Positions 10,025-28,058 of a DNA stretch of 64,000 nucleotides are shown piece by piece (position 1 is the first letter of the stretch; every line of letters begins with the position of its first letter). The notes beneath the pieces are model-generated. The model made no database searches. It was not told the origin of the DNA and saw nothing but the letters and a program-made list of their open reading frames with translations. Origin of the DNA: Actinoallomurus purpureus (lineage in GTDB: Bacteria > Actinomycetota > Actinomycetes > Streptosporangiales > Streptosporangiaceae); the NCBI RefSeq assembly GCF_024055795.1, contig NZ_JAMXMY010000017.1:1-64000 (forward strand), in the 5' to 3' direction. Both the position numbers and the translations under genes were made by a program.

Positions 10025-11492
10025 CGAGCACGACGCCGAAGGCCAGCCAGGGCACGTAGTCGCCGAACCGGTCATAGGGCGTACGGCCCGCGGCGGGCGC
10101 GACCTCGGCCAGTACCGACCCCCGCCGCCACGTGTCGAACCAGGCCAGCCGGCGTCCCTTCGCGTCGAAGGCGGCCGACACCCCGGTCAACGCGGCCTGC
10201 ACGACCGGACGCCCGGTCTCGGCCGCGCGCACGGCGCCGAGCGACGCGTGCTGCGGCGGCGCCCAACTGTCCTGGAAGGACGAGGTCGCCGACTCGTACA
10301 CGATCAGCCGGGCACCGCGCCGTACGACCGCACGGCTCTGGTCGGGGAACGCCGACTCGAAGCAGATCAGCGGCCCGAAGGTCACGGCGTCCGGCCCGCC
10401 GCCGGCCCGCATCAGCACGATGCCCGTGCCGGGGACGCGGTCCTCCGCGGCCGCCGCGCTGATGCGGGCGACCCATCCCAGCTCCCGGCGCAGCGGGATG
10501 TACTCCCCGAACGGGACGAGCAGGTTCTTGACGTACCGGGCCCGGACACCGTCCGGGCCGATCAGCACCGCGGTCTTGGAGATGCGCCCGGACGCGTCGC
10601 GCGCGTCCTCGTTCACGAGCAGGGGGCCGTGAGCGCGGGCCAGCGCGGTCAGCCGGCCGACAAGGTCGGGCCGCCGGTCGAGGTCGAAGCCGACGCTGCT
10701 CTCGCCCCAGACCACCAGGTCGACGGCCGGAAGCGCGGCGGTGATCCGCTCGTTCTCGGAGAACCGGTGATCCGGGCCGTCGACGACGCCCGGCTGGACG
10801 AGGGCGATCCGCATCGGCCGGCCGGCGGCCTCGGAGGACGGCGCGTACACCACCGGGCCGGACAGGCCGATGAGCGCCGCCAGGACCGCGGCGGTCACCG
10901 AGCGGGTGACGAGGATCATGGCGACGGCGGTGTTCACCGCCAGCAGGGCGAAGGTCACCAGCCACACGCCACCGAGCGACGCCAGGCTCAGCACCGCCGG
11001 GTGCCGCCACTGCGTGGCGCCGTACAGCGCCCACGGGCCGCCGAGGGCGTGCCAGGAGCGCACCCACTCGCCCACCAGCCACACGCTCGGTACGACGACG
11101 AGGGCCGCCGCGAGCCGGCCCGGCCGCAGCAGCGCCCAGGCGGCGTATCCCCAGGCCGCCCAGAGCGCGCCGGCGGCCACCACGAGCAGGGGCAGCGCGG
11201 GGCCGAGGTCGGGGAGCAGCCAGTAGAGCGCGGCGGCGAGGAACCCGGTGCCGAACCACCAGCCGCGCACGGCCGCCTCCCGGCCGGTCGCGGCGGCCCG
11301 TACGACCAGCAGGCCGGGCACGAGCGCCACCCAGGCGAACCAGTCGAGCCCCGCGCGGGGGAACGCCAGGACCGGCAGCACCCCGGCGGCCAGGGCGGCG
11401 AGCCGGAGCCGGCCGCGCATCCCCCTCGAGGCGGGCGCGGCCTCGTCCGGCAGGGGACCGCCCGGACCGGTGAACTCCGCCGCCGTTCTCAT
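9984..11492 (-). CDS. lnt: Apolipoprotein N-acyltransferase
   Basis: About 502 residues. Adds the third acyl chain to the N-terminal cysteine of lipoproteins at the outer face of the membrane. Six or more membrane helices fill residues 30-215, followed by a nitrilase-like domain with the catalytic triad Glu264 (WGESS), Lys322 (YVKNLL) and Cys377 (LICFES), then a last helix. No mannosyltransferase domain is fused, unlike some mycobacterial forms. The start could be the ATG or the GTG just before it; the ribosome site is weak. Divergent from the S8 protease gene across about 125 bases. Confidence 0.9.
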   Translation of the reverse strand: MRTAAEFTGPGGPLPDEAAPASRGMRGRLRLAALAAGVLPVLAFPRAGLDWFAWVALVPGLLVVRAAATGREAAVRGWWFGTGFLAAALYWLLPDLGPALPLLVVAAGALWAAWGYAAWALLRPGRLAAALVVVPSVWLVGEWVRSWHALGGPWALYGATQWRHPAVLSLASLGGVWLVTFALLAVNTAVAMILVTRSVTAAVLAALIGLSGPVVYAPSSEAAGRPMRIALVQPGVVDGPDHRFSENERITAALPAVDLVVWGESSVGFDLDRRPDLVGRLTALARAHGPLLVNEDARDASGRISKTAVLIGPDGVRARYVKNLLVPFGEYIPLRRELGWVARISAAAAEDRVPGTGIVLMRAGGGPDAVTFGPLICFESAFPDQSRAVVRRGARLIVYESATSSFQDSWAPPQHASLGAVRAAETGRPVVQAALTGVSAAFDAKGRRLAWFDTWRRGSVLAEVAPAAGRTPYDRFGDYVPWLAFGVVLVSGCCAARTRRGS

Positions 11493-11617
11493 CACTCCAG
11501 GGTGACCTCGGGGTGACCGGACGGCAAGGACCCGTCGCCCGGCCGGGCCGCCGGGTGAAACGACCGGCCATCCGGTGACGATATGTGATCGCACGGATAC
11601 GCGGAGAAGGTGGCGCG

Positions 11618-12781
11618 ATGACCGATCAGGACGCCCGGCTCGAACGGCTCCTCGCCCGCCACCACGACGCGACCCTGGTCGAGCCGCTCCCCGGCCGCCC
11701 GGCGCTCGTGCGCCGCGACCAGATCCTGGTCGCCGACCACGACGTGCCGGCGGTCGAGGACGCCGTGCGCCGCTGGTACGACGCGCGGCACGACGGACCG
11801 GGGGTCGCCCGCGTAATGCTCCGCGCCGCCGCGAGGGTGGACGTGTGCGAGCTGTCCGCACAGCTGGCCGGTGGCGCGCCGCACCGGCGCCTGGCCGTCG
11901 CGCCGAACCACCTCGTCCACGGTCAGCCGATGTGGTGGAGCGGGCCGGCGGGAGCACCCCGCGCCGCCCCGGCGTTCGGGCCGCCCGCGGCCGACGCCGC
12001 GGCCGGCCGCCCGGTGACGGTCGCCGTCCTCGACACCGGCCTGTCGCCGCACCCCTGGTATTCGTCGGCCGCCTGGTACGCCGAGCAGCGCGACGAGGTC
12101 ACCGAGATCCTGGACGCCGACCTCGACTACGCGCTCGACGCGCAGGCCGGTCACGGCACCTTCGTCGCGGGGGTGCTGCTACGCCACGCCCCGTCCGCGC
12201 GCATCCGCGCGAAGCGCGTGATCGGCGGCGACGGTGTCGGCGACGAACTCGGCGTCCTGCACGCCCTGGCCTGGCTGGCCGCGTGGGGCCGGGCCGACAT
12301 TGTCAACCTGTCCTTCGGCTGCCACACCTACGACGACCGCCCCTCTCCCCTCGTGGCCCGCGCCATCGCCGCCCTCGCCCGCCGTACGGTCGTCGTCGCG
12401 TGCGCGGGCAACCACGCGAGCGACCGGCCGTTCTGGCCGGCCGCCCTCAAGCACGTGATCGCGGTGGCCGCGCTGGACGGAGACGAACGCGCGGCGTTCT
12501 CCGACTACGGCTGGTGGGTGGACGCCTGCGCGCCCGGAGTCGACGTCCACAGCTGCTTCGTCCGCTTCGACGGCCCCCGGCCCGGCGTCCACGGGATCGA
12601 CCCCGACGACTTCACCGGCTACGCGCTGTGGAGCGGAACATCCTTCGCGGCACCCGCCGTGGCAGGCACGATCGCCGGCCTCGCCGCCGCCGAGGACCTG
12701 CCCGCCACGGTCGCCGCCGACCGGGTACTCGACCCGGCGGGCCGCCGCACGCACCCCGATCTCGGCGTAGTGATCGGCTGA
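11618..12781 (+). CDS. S8 (subtilisin-like) serine protease, probably intracellular
   Basis: 387 residues. The triad is Asp139 (AVLDTGLS), His179 (AGHGTFVAG) and Ser342 (SGTSFAAPAVAG), with Asn265 (CAGNHAS) for the oxyanion hole, so the enzyme should be active. There is no signal peptide. Residues 1-125 form a prodomain-like region (LERLLARHHDATLVEPL, RRDQILVADHDV) that may act as an inhibitor or partner domain. GAGAAGG precedes the ATG. It leads a run of four same-strand genes ending in a TPR-CHAT protease. The 119-base gap before the sigma factor gene carries its own promoter-like sequence. The natural substrate is unknown. Confidence 0.9.
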   Translation: MTDQDARLERLLARHHDATLVEPLPGRPALVRRDQILVADHDVPAVEDAVRRWYDARHDGPGVARVMLRAAARVDVCELSAQLAGGAPHRRLAVAPNHLVHGQPMWWSGPAGAPRAAPAFGPPAADAAAGRPVTVAVLDTGLSPHPWYSSAAWYAEQRDEVTEILDADLDYALDAQAGHGTFVAGVLLRHAPSARIRAKRVIGGDGVGDELGVLHALAWLAAWGRADIVNLSFGCHTYDDRPSPLVARAIAALARRTVVVACAGNHASDRPFWPAALKHVIAVAALDGDERAAFSDYGWWVDACAPGVDVHSCFVRFDGPRPGVHGIDPDDFTGYALWSGTSFAAPAVAGTIAGLAAAEDLPATVAADRVLDPAGRRTHPDLGVVIG

Positions 12782-12861
12782 GGACGCCGACGTTCGCGCG
12801 ACGCCTACCCCGGCTGGCGGCGTTACTGGACACCGGCGGCGCCACCCCGGCAATCAACCGA

Positions 12862-12901
12862 TTGTAATGTCTCGACTACTTTCCGCTAATATCCCGGCGC
12901 G
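12862..12901 (+). promoter_or_regulatory. Candidate promoter giving a leaderless sigma-factor mRNA
   Basis: This AT-rich patch stands out locally: TTGTAA at 12862-12867 and TAATAT at 12887-12892, 19 bases apart. Transcription would begin seven to nine bases later, at or next to the GTG start codon at 12901. No ribosome-binding sequence is present before that GTG, which fits a leaderless transcript. Confidence 0.45.
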
Positions 12902-13431
12902 TGGAATGGAACGAGACCGGCGACCTGGTGCGGAAGGCGCGCGCGGGCGATCCGGCGGCCTGGCGGGAGCTCGTCGATCGCTACTCGCGGCTGCTGTGCG
13001 CGATCGCGCGATCGTACGGGCTGAGCGGCGCGGACGTCGATGACGTCGTGCAGACGACGTGGCTGCGGCTGGTCGAGCGGCTGCCCCGGCTGCGCGACCC
13101 GGCGCGCGCGGGCGCCTGGCTCGCCGTCACCGCCCGGAGGGAGAGCCTGGCCACGTTGCGGCGGCGAGGCCGCGAACGACCCCTCACCGGCCACGCGCCG
13201 TCGGTCACCGGTCCCCACCACGTGGTGTTCGGACGTGACCTCGCCGGTTCGGTGACGGCCGCCCTCGACGCCGTGCCGCCCCGCTGCCGCGCCCTGCTGG
13301 AGCTGTCCATCGCCTCCCCCCGGCTCAGCTACGTGGAGATCTCGACGGCGCTCGGCGTCCCGCTGGGCAGCGTCGGCCCGACCCGTGCCCGCTGCCTGAC
13401 CCACCTGCGTCGCCGGCTCGGTGTCACATGA
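12901..13431 (+). CDS. ECF-type RNA polymerase sigma factor
   Basis: 176 residues. Region 2 (residues 8-70) includes DPAAWRELVDRYSRLL and ADVDDVVQTTWLRLVERL; region 4 (residues 118-172) includes VPPRCRALLELSIASPRLSY and a helix-turn-helix ending RARCLTHLRRRLG. There is no zinc-binding anti-sigma gene next to it; instead the following small protein overlaps by four bases (ATGA). It probably directs RNA polymerase to a small set of promoters, perhaps including its own operon. Part of the S8 protease/TPR-CHAT cluster. Confidence 0.9.
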   Translation: MEWNETGDLVRKARAGDPAAWRELVDRYSRLLCAIARSYGLSGADVDDVVQTTWLRLVERLPRLRDPARAGAWLAVTARRESLATLRRRGRERPLTGHAPSVTGPHHVVFGRDLAGSVTAALDAVPPRCRALLELSIASPRLSYVEISTALGVPLGSVGPTRARCLTHLRRRLGVT

Positions 13432-13844
13432 ACGACGACGAGCTGATCGAGGGCCTGCGCAGGGCGTTCCCGCCGGTTCCGGACCACCTGGTCGGCCTCG
13501 GGCTGGCGGCGTTCGACTGGCTGGCCCCCGACGCGACGCTGGCCACGCTCGCGTACGACGCCGGCGAGACCCCGGCAGGGGTGCGCGGCGGCGAGCCCAG
13601 GTCGCTGACGTTCGCCGGGCCCGGCGTGCACGTCGAGATCGAGATCTGCGGCAGGGAGATCGTCGGGCAGCTGACGCCCCCGGCGGACGCGGAGGTGATC
13701 CTGCGCTCCCCCCACGGCGAGCGCGGGACCCGCACCGACGTGTCCGGCGCCTTCATCCTGCCCGAGGTCCCGGCCGGCCTGGTCAGCCTCCTGTTCCGGC
13801 CGGCCGATGGCACGTCCGTGGTGACGAGCTGGATCCATGTCTGA
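13428..13844 (+). CDS. Small protein between the sigma factor and CHAT protease, possible sigma partner
   Basis: 138 residues, no signal or membrane segment. The N-terminal third is helical (NDDELIEGLRRAFPPVPDHL, then FDWLAPDATLATLAYD). The rest is beta-rich and ends in a carboxypeptidase-regulatory-like fold (VILRSPHGERGTRTDVSGAF, LPEVPAGLVSLLF). It overlaps the sigma gene by four bases and the TPR-CHAT gene by eight, so the three are made together. By position it could be an anti-sigma factor, an adaptor, or a substrate of one of the two proteases. I do not recognise a named family with certainty. Confidence 0.7.
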   Translation: MNDDELIEGLRRAFPPVPDHLVGLGLAAFDWLAPDATLATLAYDAGETPAGVRGGEPRSLTFAGPGVHVEIEICGREIVGQLTPPADAEVILRSPHGERGTRTDVSGAFILPEVPAGLVSLLFRPADGTSVVTSWIHV

Positions 13845-16332
13845 CCTCCCGGCGCTGGCGGCCGTCGATCCGCGCGGCGTGTACACCACCGCCTCGGCGC
13901 TGCGCGACACCGGCGACCTCGAACAGCGCGTGCTGGCGCTGCGCGCCCTCGGCCTGGCGGGCAAGGAGCTGGGCCGGCTCGCCGAGGGCATCGCGCATCT
14001 GCGCGAGGCGCTCCGGGTCGCCGAGTCCGCGGGGCTGCGCTACGCCGCCGCCCAGGTGCGGATGAACCTCGTCGGCCTGCTGGCCACCGGCGGGGACATC
14101 GAGGGCGCGCTGACCGCCGCCGACGCCGCCGCGCCGGTGCTGACCGGAGCCGACGCCGATCGGCTGCTCGCCAACCGGGCGTACCTCCTCGCCCGCAGCG
14201 GCCACATCGGGGAGGTCGCCCGCCTCGCCCGGAGCTGCACCGATCCGGAGATCCTCGTCGGCCTGCGCATCAACACCGGCCTCGCGAAGGCGTACGCCGG
14301 GCGGCTCGGGCGAGGCGAGGCCGAGCTGCGCACCGCGCTCGCCGTCGCCGAACGGGCGGGCCTGCGGCACCAGGCGGCGATGGTCCGCCACAACCTCGCG
14401 TTCGTCGCCATGCGGCGCGGCGACCTGGCCCGCGCGCTCGCGCTGTACGACGACGTCGAGCCGGAGCTGGCAGGCGCGGACGAGCGTCTCTGCCAGCTGC
14501 GCCTCGACCGGGCGGAGGCGCTCATCGCCGCCCGGCTGCCCGGAGAGGCCCGCGCCCTGCTGACGGACACGCTCGGCCGGCTGACGGCCGGGGGCTACCG
14601 CTGCGACACCGCGGACGCGCTGCTCCTCCTGGCGCACGCCGAGCTGGCCGACGGCGATCCCCGCGCCGCGGTGGCGACCGCCCGGCGGGCCCAGGCCGAG
14701 TTCGCGGACCGCACCGGTTTCGCCCTGCTGGCCGAACAGGTCGGCCTGCGGGCGCGGTGGGCGGACGGCGATCGTTCGGCGGCGCTCCTGGCGTCCGCCG
14801 AGCAGGCCGCCGAACGGCTCGCGCGCCATGACTGGGTCTCCGCCGCGGCCGACGCGCGGACGCTGGCGGGCCTGGTCGCCCTCGCGCGCGGCGACCGGGA
14901 ACGCGCCGAACGCCTCCTCGACCGGGTCGGCGGCGAGACCGTGAGCGCCCGGGTCGCGGGGCTGCACGCCACCGCGCTGCTGCGGCTCGCGCGCGGCGAC
15001 CGGCCCGGCGCGGCCGCCGCTGTGCGCGCCGGGCTGCGGGCCGTGGACGATCACGCCGCCGCCCTCGGCGCCGTCGAGCTGCGCGGACGTGCGGCGGGCT
15101 GGGCGTCGGAGCTGGCCGAGCTCGGGCTGCGGCTGGCGACCGGTCCCCGCGCCCTCCTCCTGGCCGCCGAACGCGCCCGCGCGATCGCCGACCGCCCGCC
15201 CGCCGTACGGCCGCCCCGCGACCGTCGGCTCGGCGGGCTGCTGGCCGAGCTGCGCCGTGTCAGCGCAGAGGTCCCTGACCGCCCGGAGCTCCTGGCCGCC
15301 CAGGCCCGGCTGGAGGACGCCGTGCGAGCCCGGTGCCGCCGGCTGTCGGCCAGCCGCGACGCGGTCCCCGGGGGGGGTTGGCTCGTCCCTGCCCTCGCCG
15401 AGACGCTGGGTGAGCGGATGCTCGTGGAGTTCATCCGCGTGGGCGGGGATCTCGTGGCGGTGACCCTCGCGAACGGGCGCTGCCGCCGCCTGCCACTGGG
15501 TCCGTACGCCCCGGTCCGGGACGACATCCGGCTGCTGCGCTTCGCCGTCTCACGGCTGGCTCGCGACCCCGACGGCGCGGCGGCCCGTTCCTCCCTGGCG
15601 ACGACTGCTGATCGCCTCGGCTCTCGGCTTCTCGCGCCACTGATCGTCGGCGACAGACCCGTCGTGCTCGCCCCCGTGGACGCGCTGCACGGCCTGCCGT
15701 GGCCCGCGCTGCCATCGCTGGCGAGCCGCCCGTTGACCGTCGTGCCATCCGCCGCCGGCTGGCTGCGGGCCATGCGGACGCCCTCGCCCGGCGGGCACGT
15801 GGCACTGATCGCCGGTCCGGATCTCGCGCACGCAGAGGACGAGATCGCGGCTGTACGCGCGCGGCATCCGGATGCGCGGATCCTCACCGGGGCGGCCGCG
15901 ACCGCCGAAGCGGCCCGGTCCGCCCTCGACGGTGCCTCGGTCGCCCATGTCGCCGCGCACGGAGTGTTCCGTTCGGGAAACGCCCTGTTCTCCCGCCTCC
16001 GCCTGGCCGATGGGCCGCTGTTCGCGTACGACCTGGAGCACTTGGAGCGGTCACCGCGCCTGCTGGTGCTGTCCGCGTGCGACGCGGGCCGTGCGGAGAT
16101 CTACGAGGGCGAGGCGGTCATCGGCATGGTCACGGCCGCCCTCGGCTTCGGCACCCCCACAGTGGTCGCCGCCGTCACCCCGGTCGGCGACGCCGCCGCC
16201 CGCGACCTGATGACCGGCTTCCACGAGCACCTGGCCGCTGGCGCCACCCCTGCCGAGGCCCTCGCCTCCGCTCCGAGAGCCGTTTCGGCCCTCGGCTTCG
16301 TCTGCTTCGGCGCCGGCCACGACCGAGCATGA
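13837..16332 (+). CDS. TPR-CHAT protein: tetratricopeptide array with a caspase-like protease domain
   Basis: 831 residues. Residues 15-430 are alanine/leucine-rich helical repeats of TPR type (for example EGIAHLREALRVAESAGLRY and RGEAELRTALAVAERAGL). A linker leads to the CHAT domain at about 560-831, a clan CD cysteine protease fold. The catalytic pair is visible: His708 in VAAHGVF and Cys748 in LVLSACDAG. CHAT proteases are typically switched on through their TPR part, as in the Cas7-11-associated TPR-CHAT protein. Here the partners are probably the S8 protease, the sigma factor and the small protein upstream. No signal peptide, so cytosolic. What activates it and what it cuts are unknown. 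Confidence 0.88.
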   Translation: MSDLPALAAVDPRGVYTTASALRDTGDLEQRVLALRALGLAGKELGRLAEGIAHLREALRVAESAGLRYAAAQVRMNLVGLLATGGDIEGALTAADAAAPVLTGADADRLLANRAYLLARSGHIGEVARLARSCTDPEILVGLRINTGLAKAYAGRLGRGEAELRTALAVAERAGLRHQAAMVRHNLAFVAMRRGDLARALALYDDVEPELAGADERLCQLRLDRAEALIAARLPGEARALLTDTLGRLTAGGYRCDTADALLLLAHAELADGDPRAAVATARRAQAEFADRTGFALLAEQVGLRARWADGDRSAALLASAEQAAERLARHDWVSAAADARTLAGLVALARGDRERAERLLDRVGGETVSARVAGLHATALLRLARGDRPGAAAAVRAGLRAVDDHAAALGAVELRGRAAGWASELAELGLRLATGPRALLLAAERARAIADRPPAVRPPRDRRLGGLLAELRRVSAEVPDRPELLAAQARLEDAVRARCRRLSASRDAVPGGGWLVPALAETLGERMLVEFIRVGGDLVAVTLANGRCRRLPLGPYAPVRDDIRLLRFAVSRLARDPDGAAARSSLATTADRLGSRLLAPLIVGDRPVVLAPVDALHGLPWPALPSLASRPLTVVPSAAGWLRAMRTPSPGGHVALIAGPDLAHAEDEIAAVRARHPDARILTGAAATAEAARSALDGASVAHVAAHGVFRSGNALFSRLRLADGPLFAYDLEHLERSPRLLVLSACDAGRAEIYEGEAVIGMVTAALGFGTPTVVAAVTPVGDAAARDLMTGFHEHLAAGATPAEALASAPRAVSALGFVCFGAGHDRA

Positions 16333-26860: not shown

Positions 26861-27947
26861 CCAGCCGCAACGATGTTCTCGGCCGCGTTGATGTCCCGGT
26901 CATGCCGGGTGCGGCAGCCCGGACACGTCCAGTGCCGGGTGGAAAGGCTCAGCTTGGCGAGCAGGTGCCCGCAGTTCGAGCAGGTCTTGGAGGAGGGGTA
27001 CCAGCGGTCGATGACCACGAGGGTGCGCCCGGCGCGTTCGGCCTTGTACTCCAACTGCCGGCGGAACTCCCCCCACCCCGCATCGGAGATCACCCGCGCC
27101 AGCCTGCGGTTCTTCACCATGTTGGCGACCGCGAGGTCTTCGATGACGATGGTGTCGGCCCGGCGGATCAGGTTGGTGCTGGTGCGGTGCAGGAAGTCGG
27201 CGCGGGCGTTACGGACCTTACGGTGGGCGCGGGCGACCTTCGCCTTGGCCTTACGCCGGTTCATGCTCCCACGCTGGCAGCGGGCCATCCGCCGCTGATA
27301 GCGGGCCAGGTTACGGGCCTTGCGCTCCAGATGCCGGGGGTTGGCGACGCGCTCCCCGTCGGAGGTGACCGCAAGTCCTTGATCCCCAGATCGATGCCGA
27401 TGGCGTGCCCGGCCTCATCGATGGGGTCGGGCACTTGGGTGTCGATGGCGAACGTGACGTACCAGCGGCCGTCCGGATCCCGGGAGATGACGACCATGGT
27501 GGGGTTGAGCGTGGAGACCTCGACGTCGTCGAAGGACCACACGAACCTCAGCGGGGTGGCGGTCTTGGCCATGGACAACTCGCCGTTCTTCATGCGGAAC
27601 GCCGAGCGGGTGTAGTGCGCGGTCTGCCGGGAGTTGCGGTTCTTGAACCGCGGGTACTTCGCGCGGCCGGCGAAGAAGTTCGCGAACGCCGCGTGCTGAT
27701 GCCTCAGCGCCTGCTGCAACGGAACCGACGACACCTCCGACAAGAACGCCAGGTCCTCGGTCTTCTTCCACCCGGTCAAAGCGGCGTCGGTCTGCCGGTA
27801 GGAGGTCTTTTCGCCCCGCTGGTGGTACGCGGCGTGGCGTTCGGCGAGGGTCTTGTTCCACACCAGGCGCACACACCCGAACGTACGGCTGAACACCGCC
27901 GCCTGTTCGGGGTCCGGGTAGGCCCGGCACTTGTACGCCGTCCGCAT
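26740..27947 (-). pseudogene. tnpB: TnpB RNA-guided nuclease with a single-base frameshift (IS200/IS605 type)
   Basis: About 400 residues when the frame is repaired. The N-terminal part (MRTAYKCRAYPDPEQAAVF; VRLVWNKTLAERH) runs to GIDLGIKDL, the first RuvC Asp. One base is then missing near 27372; the expected DLAVTSDGERVANPRHLERK is recovered in the next frame. The second part keeps the RuvC Glu (IVIEDLAVANMV), the zinc finger (CSNCGH, CPGC) and the last Asp (RDINAAENI). No tnpA transposase is nearby. It could be recent decay, a programmed shift or a sequencing error. Confidence 0.8.
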
Positions 27948-28058
27948 GACCAACACCTTACAACTGTCGCGCTCCCATGTAAGTCGAATGACCGAACGTC
28001 GGCGGACTCCGTTCTCAGGCCGTCCCGGCTACGCCGGGCCGCTCCTGACCGAGTCCGG

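Follow-up and report, generated by a model that had tools for sequence, protein, structure and literature searches.

A conserved gene set of an ECF sigma factor, a small protein, a TPR-CHAT protease and a subtilase in Actinomycetota: a possible proteolysis-linked sigma switch

Four neighbouring genes of Actinoallomurus purpureus encode an S8 (subtilase) protease, an extracytoplasmic function (ECF) sigma factor (SIG), a small protein (SML) and a TPR-CHAT protein that carries a second protease domain, and the same genes are found together across the Actinomycetota. Their conserved linkage supports the suggestion, made in a first-pass annotation of this DNA, that they form one functional unit. 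Our tentative reading, possible rather than probable, is that the unit is a cytoplasmic, proteolysis-linked ECF sigma switch, in which the CHAT protease acts on SIG or SML and the freed SIG drives itself and, in clades that bear a promoter motif described below, the S8 gene. To a gene association that is already in print (see below) we add the strict pairing of SML with SIG, the loss of S8 in one clade, and a promoter motif shared by SIG and S8. The features discussed lie in the window, by which we mean the whole 64,000-nt stretch analysed (assembly GCF_024055795.1, contig NZ_JAMXMY010000017.1, positions 1 to 64,000, forward strand):

11618–12781, + strand: S8 (subtilase) protease, open reading frame (ORF) of 387 aa, identified by Pfam; about 129 N-terminal residues precede the Pfam domain
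12864–12892, + strand: putative promoter of the SIG-SML-CHAT transcript, GTAATG-N15-GCTAATAT, ending 8 nt before the SIG start; spotted by eye in an alignment of the genus
12901–13431, + strand: SIG, ECF sigma factor, ORF of 176 aa with regions 2 and 4; GSVGPTRARCL motif within region 4
13428–13844, + strand: SML, small protein, ORF of 138 aa with N-terminal helices and a beta-sandwich; putative sigma partner
13837–16332, + strand: TPR-CHAT protein, ORF of 831 aa, identified by Pfam, alignment and structural neighbours
15607–16284, + strand: CHAT protease domain of the TPR-CHAT protein, with His708 and Cys748

The ORFs, first annotated as four same-strand genes of which the last three overlap, were confirmed as such: SIG and SML share 4 nt and SML and CHAT 8 nt, while S8 stands apart, with 119 nt between its end and the SIG start.

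Conservation and gene order

A search with the CHAT protein found matches in 105 of 149 genomes, its own included. Of the first 20 regions fetched, all 20 had SML next to CHAT, SIG was present in 19 and S8 in 19, and 15 kept the order and strand of the window. The best 80 CHAT relatives of a public scan include proteins from Actinomadura, Amycolatopsis, Lentzea, Saccharothrix, Salinispora and Micromonospora, as well as from Kribbella, Solirubrobacter and Acidimicrobiia. Genes within 4 kb were counted at usable loci, meaning those flanked by 4 kb or more on each side, in three partly overlapping sets, each of 80 fetched loci. All four genes were present at 48 of the 57 usable loci of the named CHAT-anchored set and at 38 of 64 in a second CHAT-anchored set; among the 66 usable loci of an SML-anchored set, SIG was present at 64, CHAT at 59, S8 at 48 and all four at 46. 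The comparison across actinobacterial genomes that the first-pass annotation had proposed thus found the set kept together.

The order of the genes is far from fixed, with 11 arrangements among the 172 distinct loci that hold exactly one of each, and SML nonetheless lies directly downstream of SIG in 171 of them. Counted from the other side, SIG is directly upstream of 255 of 274 distinct SML genes, and the 4-nt overlap recurs in 66 of 162 pairs. Linkage that is retained despite such rearrangement argues for selection, and we rejected a chance neighbourhood because the four genes recur together far beyond chance across the fetched loci. Phylum-wide, SML was found in 27 of 246 genomes and a CHAT match at E < 1e-60, a cut chosen after seeing the lists, in 24, all of them within the 27; the SML family occurs in 125 of 394 genomes of the class (E 1e-8).

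Individual members can be unlinked. SIG-SML and CHAT lie on different contigs in two genomes (G224 and G293) and 1.2 Mb apart in a third (G254), and G308 has SML without SIG, 25 kb from CHAT. Within the family to which the window belongs, one clade has retained SIG-SML-CHAT with no S8 beside it. In seven such genomes (G028, G030, G082, G037, G678, G528 and G013) the best S8-profile match genome-wide reaches 80 bits, and two of the seven have no S8-profile match at all at E 1e-10; the S8 genes that adjoin CHAT in the named loci score at least 127 bits, except for one extra match of 64. S8 therefore seems dispensable for the core of the set.

Two further observations concern SIG and SML. Five loci (L201, L216, L307, L310 and L330) hold S8-SML pairs without a SIG of their own, and four of these are in genomes (G089, G029, G392 and G040) that have SIG at another locus, which suggests control in trans. 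At L380 (6281–7183, − strand) SIG is split over two frames, one piece being in frame into SML, possibly as the result of an assembly or decay event.

A promoter motif shared by SIG and S8

A bipartite motif, TGTATCA-N14-16-GCTC, occurs upstream of both SIG and S8, at sites with differing flanks. It came from inspection after a count of spaced words before genes that are first in their run, which listed GTATC...GCTC for SIG and S8 and, in reverse complement, for CHAT; the same count listed other words as high or higher, such as GATC-13-GGAG before S8 and CCCA-14-ACCA before SIG. A weight matrix was applied at a cut-off that 2% of 1179 control genes pass, its training regions being included in the counts. 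It matched 41 of 134 SIG-first regions (5 reversed) and 51 of 164 S8-first regions (8 reversed). Of the 149 CHAT-first regions it matched 4 in the forward direction and 71 in reverse, and we take the reversed matches to be mostly the motif of a divergent S8 gene.

In a cross-test the matrix was trained on one gene class and applied to the other, leaving out the loci that had given training sites; the pattern that supplied the training sites was already known from both classes, and species related to one another were kept in. Trained on 20 S8 sites, the matrix matched 36 of 130 SIG regions (5 reversed; control rate 2%), and trained on 16 SIG sites it matched 44 of 156 S8 regions (5 reversed), with forward matches in 2 and 4, respectively, of the 149 CHAT-first regions. 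At the 0.5% level the counts were 20 of 130 for SIG (1 reversed), 34 of 156 for S8 (3 reversed) and 0 of 149 for CHAT. The exact motif precedes 16 of 134 SIG genes (1 reversed) and 20 of 164 S8 genes (0 reversed). In the two genomes where SIG-SML and S8-CHAT sit on separate contigs, well inside the contig ends, both modules carry the motif, with scores of 19.1 (G224) and 18.2 (G293) before SIG and 17.9 and 17.5 before S8; only the G224 SIG site among these four belonged to the training set. Two SML genes without an adjacent SIG (L135, L142) have the motif as well.

The window's genus has a variant, GT[AG][AG]T-N15-18-CGCTAAT[AG]T, placed 7–8 nt before SIG in all six same-genus genomes for which sequence upstream of SIG is present. 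The fetched loci, about 4.1 Mb searched on both strands with overlapping loci counted more than once, contain no other match. The variant has a single strict match in the 9.25-Mb genome of A. purpureus itself and keeps the 21-nt GTA-to-GCT spacing of the TGTATCA/GCTC motif. Since the pattern was derived from its own sites, these figures show conservation, not enrichment. Across 12 genomes, exact copies of the TGTATCA/GCTC motif numbered 1–6 per genome versus 0–6 for a backward control, which makes genome-wide counting of a regulon unreliable.

On the simplest reading of these upstream sequences, SIG would read the motif and drive itself, SML and S8, and a CHAT gene with its own start would not be driven. 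The promoter signal thereby suggests that one of the two proteases, S8, is switched on by SIG. The earlier idea that the sigma factor amplifies its own locus is probably correct, given the shared motif and the variant of it in the window.

Copies of the motif were also seen near other genes. Two genomes of the genus g87 have an extra copy before a LuxR-type AAA gene adjoining CHAT; a copy at an equal distance occurs in another four genomes. At L217 (8416–10353, − strand, and 10448–11530, + strand) and L394 (342–2060, + strand) a LuxR-type AAA regulator with the motif just upstream stands beside CHAT, and L217 also has a divergent astacin-like metalloprotease. The exact motif further occupies intergenic positions, followed by no called gene on its strand, at L384 (position 499), L385 (452), L386 (446) and L387 (1557); in three of these four the ORF before the motif resembles, by eye, the end of a secreted chitinase-type protein.

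The two proteases and the genomic setting

The S8 protein matches Pfam Peptidase_S8 over residues 130–359 (E 1.5e-27) and the TPR-CHAT protein matches Pfam CHAT (E 4.7e-35), TPR and CHAT being the only Pfam matches of the latter. Both had been described as keeping full active sites, and so they do: Asp139, His179 and Ser342 of S8 are invariant in an alignment of 20 sequences and His708 and Cys748 of CHAT in one of 22. In a wider set, leaving aside sequences with a gap in the column, the CHAT His is kept in 203 of 203 and the Cys in 204 of 204, and S8 keeps its Asp (162 of 162), His (170 of 170), Asn (178 of 178) and Ser (185 of 185). No hydrophobic N-terminus was seen by eye in the proteins of the locus; no signal-peptide program was run. 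The window's own genome (G000) encodes two more CHAT-domain proteins, at C14:44139–45020 (L001) and C11:894211–895137 (L003).

Invariant active sites in both proteins would fit a cascade in which CHAT cleaves the S8 prodomain and the two proteases together serve phage defence or cell death, and SAVED-CHAT proteins are described in PMC11229360 as acting via a proteolysis cascade. We nevertheless consider such a role, raised in the first-pass annotation, very improbable. One clade has an intact CHAT and no S8 at the locus, and in clades that bear the motif S8 looks like an output. The N-terminal part of S8 also differs in length between proteins, the stretch ahead of the catalytic His motif being shorter than 110 residues in 31 of 156 (start codons as called). 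Among the four proteins PADLOC returned no defence-system match, giving only a generic subtilase model (8.7e-13) and weak matches in a scan that did not extend to the neighbours; by Pfam, the neighbours scanned in the window are metabolic (fatty-acid synthesis genes, lnt, DUF2203, rhodanese and similar genes). Plasmids and phages are nearly without relatives (2 of 72,556 plasmid records and 1 of 50,697 phage records, all partial), and one of the two plasmid-set records measures 11.85 Mb. Within the genus, the three loci whose neighbourhoods were compared (L034, L035 and L037) occupy one and the same housekeeping site, and inheritance of the locus thus looks vertical; this shared site, together with the near absence from plasmid and phage records, led us to reject a recent mobile element.

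Some other genes were noted in this setting. Positions 27264–27956 of the window (− strand) encode a protein that contains the HTH_OrfB_IS605 domain and probably belongs to an OrfB/TnpB gene of the IS605 type. Some relatives have an extra gene between S8 and SIG: a GH12 glycosyl hydrolase (Pfam) at L034 (4951–5646), a GH12-like gene resembling it by eye at L035 (4977–5672), and an FG-GAP repeat protein at L042 (3564–5003).

SML as a possible partner of SIG

SIG matches Pfam Sigma70_r2 (E 3.4e-15); its region 4 has Pfam matches under the cut-off, and NCBIfam sigma70-ECF is over its own. With sigma regions 2 and 4 and no extra domain it has the architecture of the ECF type. SML is less readily placed. 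Pfam gives only a sub-threshold CarboxypepD_reg match (E 0.0059), neither Pfam nor NCBIfam recognises an anti-sigma or enzyme domain, and we rejected a known anti-sigma fold because SML has no sequence relative in the PDB (best E 0.83). Its fold, helices followed by a beta-sandwich, is taken from the predicted model of a relative (L269). An Arg in the loop that joins the helices to the beta domain (Arg53 in the window) is kept in 272 of 273 sequences, a further conserved residue, Arg58, lies in this loop, and the beta domain has a near-invariant Gly and Phe. A Foldseek search with the SIG-SML model returned sigma factors at the top, followed by weak beta-domain matches (e.g. a pilin at E 0.033), which we take to be the SML part of the predicted model.

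A 4-nt overlap is a common layout of sigma and anti-sigma genes, and the strict gene order together with this overlap makes SML a plausible partner of SIG. Mean-field coupling over 253 SIG-SML pairs points the same way, with a top score of 1.55 versus at most 1.005 in 8 shuffles, which ignore phylogeny; of the 12 strongest couplings, 6 connect the helical part of SML with region 2 or 4 of SIG, against about 4 expected from the numbers of columns. When five gene pairs were compared at the same depth, SIG-SML had the highest maxima (1.60 and 1.41), the next being 1.38.

Several results weigh against a switch built on SIG and SML and set off by CHAT. As to gene order, 19 of the 274 SML genes have no SIG beside them, and in 90 of 172 loci, a count that takes in the arrangement seen in the window, CHAT lies behind other members of the set on its own strand, so that it can be called independent of SIG at only some of the loci. 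As to the promoter, no more than about 31% of the SIG-first or S8-first regions have the motif, the exact form also precedes 15 of 1450 control genes, and in the window the S8 region is without it while the SIG region scores −4.7, below the matrix threshold. The coupling signal is uneven: the second SIG-SML sample has a top-10 mean of 1.15, below the 1.19 of SIG-S8, one of two nearest-relative controls exceeds SIG-SML, and no pair stands out among the 108 loci with all parts, an underpowered sample. AlphaFold2, given the SIG-SML read-through fusion of L269 (alignment of 69 rows, 7 paired), predicted the domains confidently and no docked complex (pLDDT 89, pTM 0.48). For SML-CHAT of the relative L080, pLDDT was 85 and pTM 0.76, about what we would expect, by our own estimate, for an undocked SML, and the SML helices were poorly predicted (38 rows, 14 paired). 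Since neither fused-chain prediction supports docking, the earlier view of SML as an anti-sigma factor stays hypothetical for us; what stands of it is a plausible sigma partner, judged by gene order and overlap.

Relation to known systems

According to section 3.3 of a 2022 review (PMC8999054, which cites Casas-Pastor 2021 and Huang 2015), carboxypeptidase, subtilase and CHAT domain proteins are conserved near ECF54 sigma factors. The window shows the same context, if its sub-threshold CarboxypepD_reg match is counted as the ‘carboxypeptidase’, and SIG is likened to ECF54 by this context, not by the group profile. The ECF54 model member SFT86700.1 is from Geodermatophilus amargosae, and a Geodermatophilus chilensis locus (L133) carries the gene set. 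The four-gene association is therefore not new, and the combination, at least by context, is less unusual than the first-pass annotation had held. The promoter motif, the loss of S8 and the nature of SML were not found in the open PMC papers searched. The set was likewise not seen in the main text of Kaur 2020, where neither CHAT nor sigma appears, or, in the portion available, in Kaur 2021, which has ECF factors with caspase-type systems and no CHAT.

In its passages on ECF54 the same review proposes control by proteolysis without an anti-sigma factor, AntA (ECF282) being given there as the only case experimentally shown to be under such control. Applied here, the proteases would degrade SIG to keep it off, SML would be an adaptor or scaffold, and the sigma-driven S8 would be a negative-feedback protease ending the response. 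S8 bears a sigma-type motif, as a feedback gene would, and both the domain searches and the undocked SIG-SML prediction accord with an SML that is not an anti-sigma factor. Yet SML, the presumed ‘carboxypeptidase’ without an enzyme domain, sits at the gene position of an anti-sigma factor, and its strict order and overlap with SIG point to a direct relation between the two. S8, moreover, is absent beside SIG-SML-CHAT in one clade and so is unlikely to be a general off-switch. We regard this account as unlikely.

The TPR-CHAT protein invites comparison with two others. In Craspase, the type III-E system of Csx29, Csx30 and CASP-sigma, Csx29 cleaves Csx30, an inhibitor of an ECF sigma factor (PMC10028731); there, as possibly here, a TPR-CHAT protease goes with an ECF sigma factor and a partner that resembles a sigma inhibitor, and the catalytic His and Cys are present in the window protein. 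In contrast to Craspase, positions 4–28 kb of the window contain no CRISPR-like array, only short tandem repeats, and no Cas family was found by Pfam among 19 window proteins (Cas7-11 was not searched genome-wide). The window locus also adds S8, and its 138-aa SML, as noted, has no sequence relative in the PDB. Ordered by E-value, the structural matches of the L080 SML-CHAT model are DdvA (8rw5), a ciliary central-pair protein, Csx29 and then separases, all with low TM-scores (0.26–0.38). DdvA shares the TPR-CHAT fold, and its anti-sigma function is known to us from the title ‘transmembrane anti-sigma factor’ only.

DdvA raises the alternative that TPR-CHAT itself sequesters SIG, as this CHAT-bearing anti-sigma factor may, with SML as a sensor or release factor. 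DdvA (8rw5, 8rot) takes first place among the structural matches, and 8rot_B, a sequence shared with 8rw5, is a profile match at 2.1e-9. Against this, Pfam finds nothing beyond TPR and CHAT in the window protein (a scan made without a transmembrane predictor), CHAT can be unlinked from a SIG-SML pair that itself remains together, and the SIG-CHAT coupling maximum falls below its nearest-relative control in both samples; we judge sequestration by CHAT to be improbable. Our main reason for favouring an action of CHAT on SML or SIG is that two CHAT proteins with solved structures are connected with ECF sigma pathways. In CalpL-CalpT-CalpS, too, a protease cleaves a soluble anti-sigma factor and releases an ECF sigma (PMC11417357), but with a Lon protease, a SAVED sensor and a CRISPR-dependent second messenger.

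A proposed switch and its meaning

In the mechanism we tentatively propose, SML, the soluble product of the gene directly after SIG, would hold SIG off, and the TPR-CHAT protease would be the sensor or trigger that, once signalled, cleaves and so inactivates SML or the SIG-SML pair. The SIG released in this way would then transcribe its own SIG-SML operon and, in motif-bearing clades, the S8 gene. S8 would thus be an induced effector or feedback protease and not the trigger. CHAT genes at the head of their own run lack a promoter of this kind; within the genus of the window the SIG, SML and CHAT genes overlap and would share one transcript from the SIG-type promoter 8 nt before SIG. The anti-sigma role of SML, its cleavage by CHAT and the order of events are offered as hypothesis only. 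More speculative, and in our view rather unlikely in its full form, is a CRISPR-free CHAT-to-sigma switch in which TPR-CHAT senses an internal signal and destroys SML as a new type of soluble anti-sigma factor, with the freed SIG inducing the operon and a cytoplasmic subtilase effector; such a switch, chromosomal across Actinomycetota, could resemble the stock from which type III-E and related protease-sigma modules came.

The motif offers the ECF54 group a likely target gene, S8. If proteolysis of SML by CHAT proves true, protease-to-sigma signalling of the Craspase kind would exist without CRISPR in many actinobacterial genomes.

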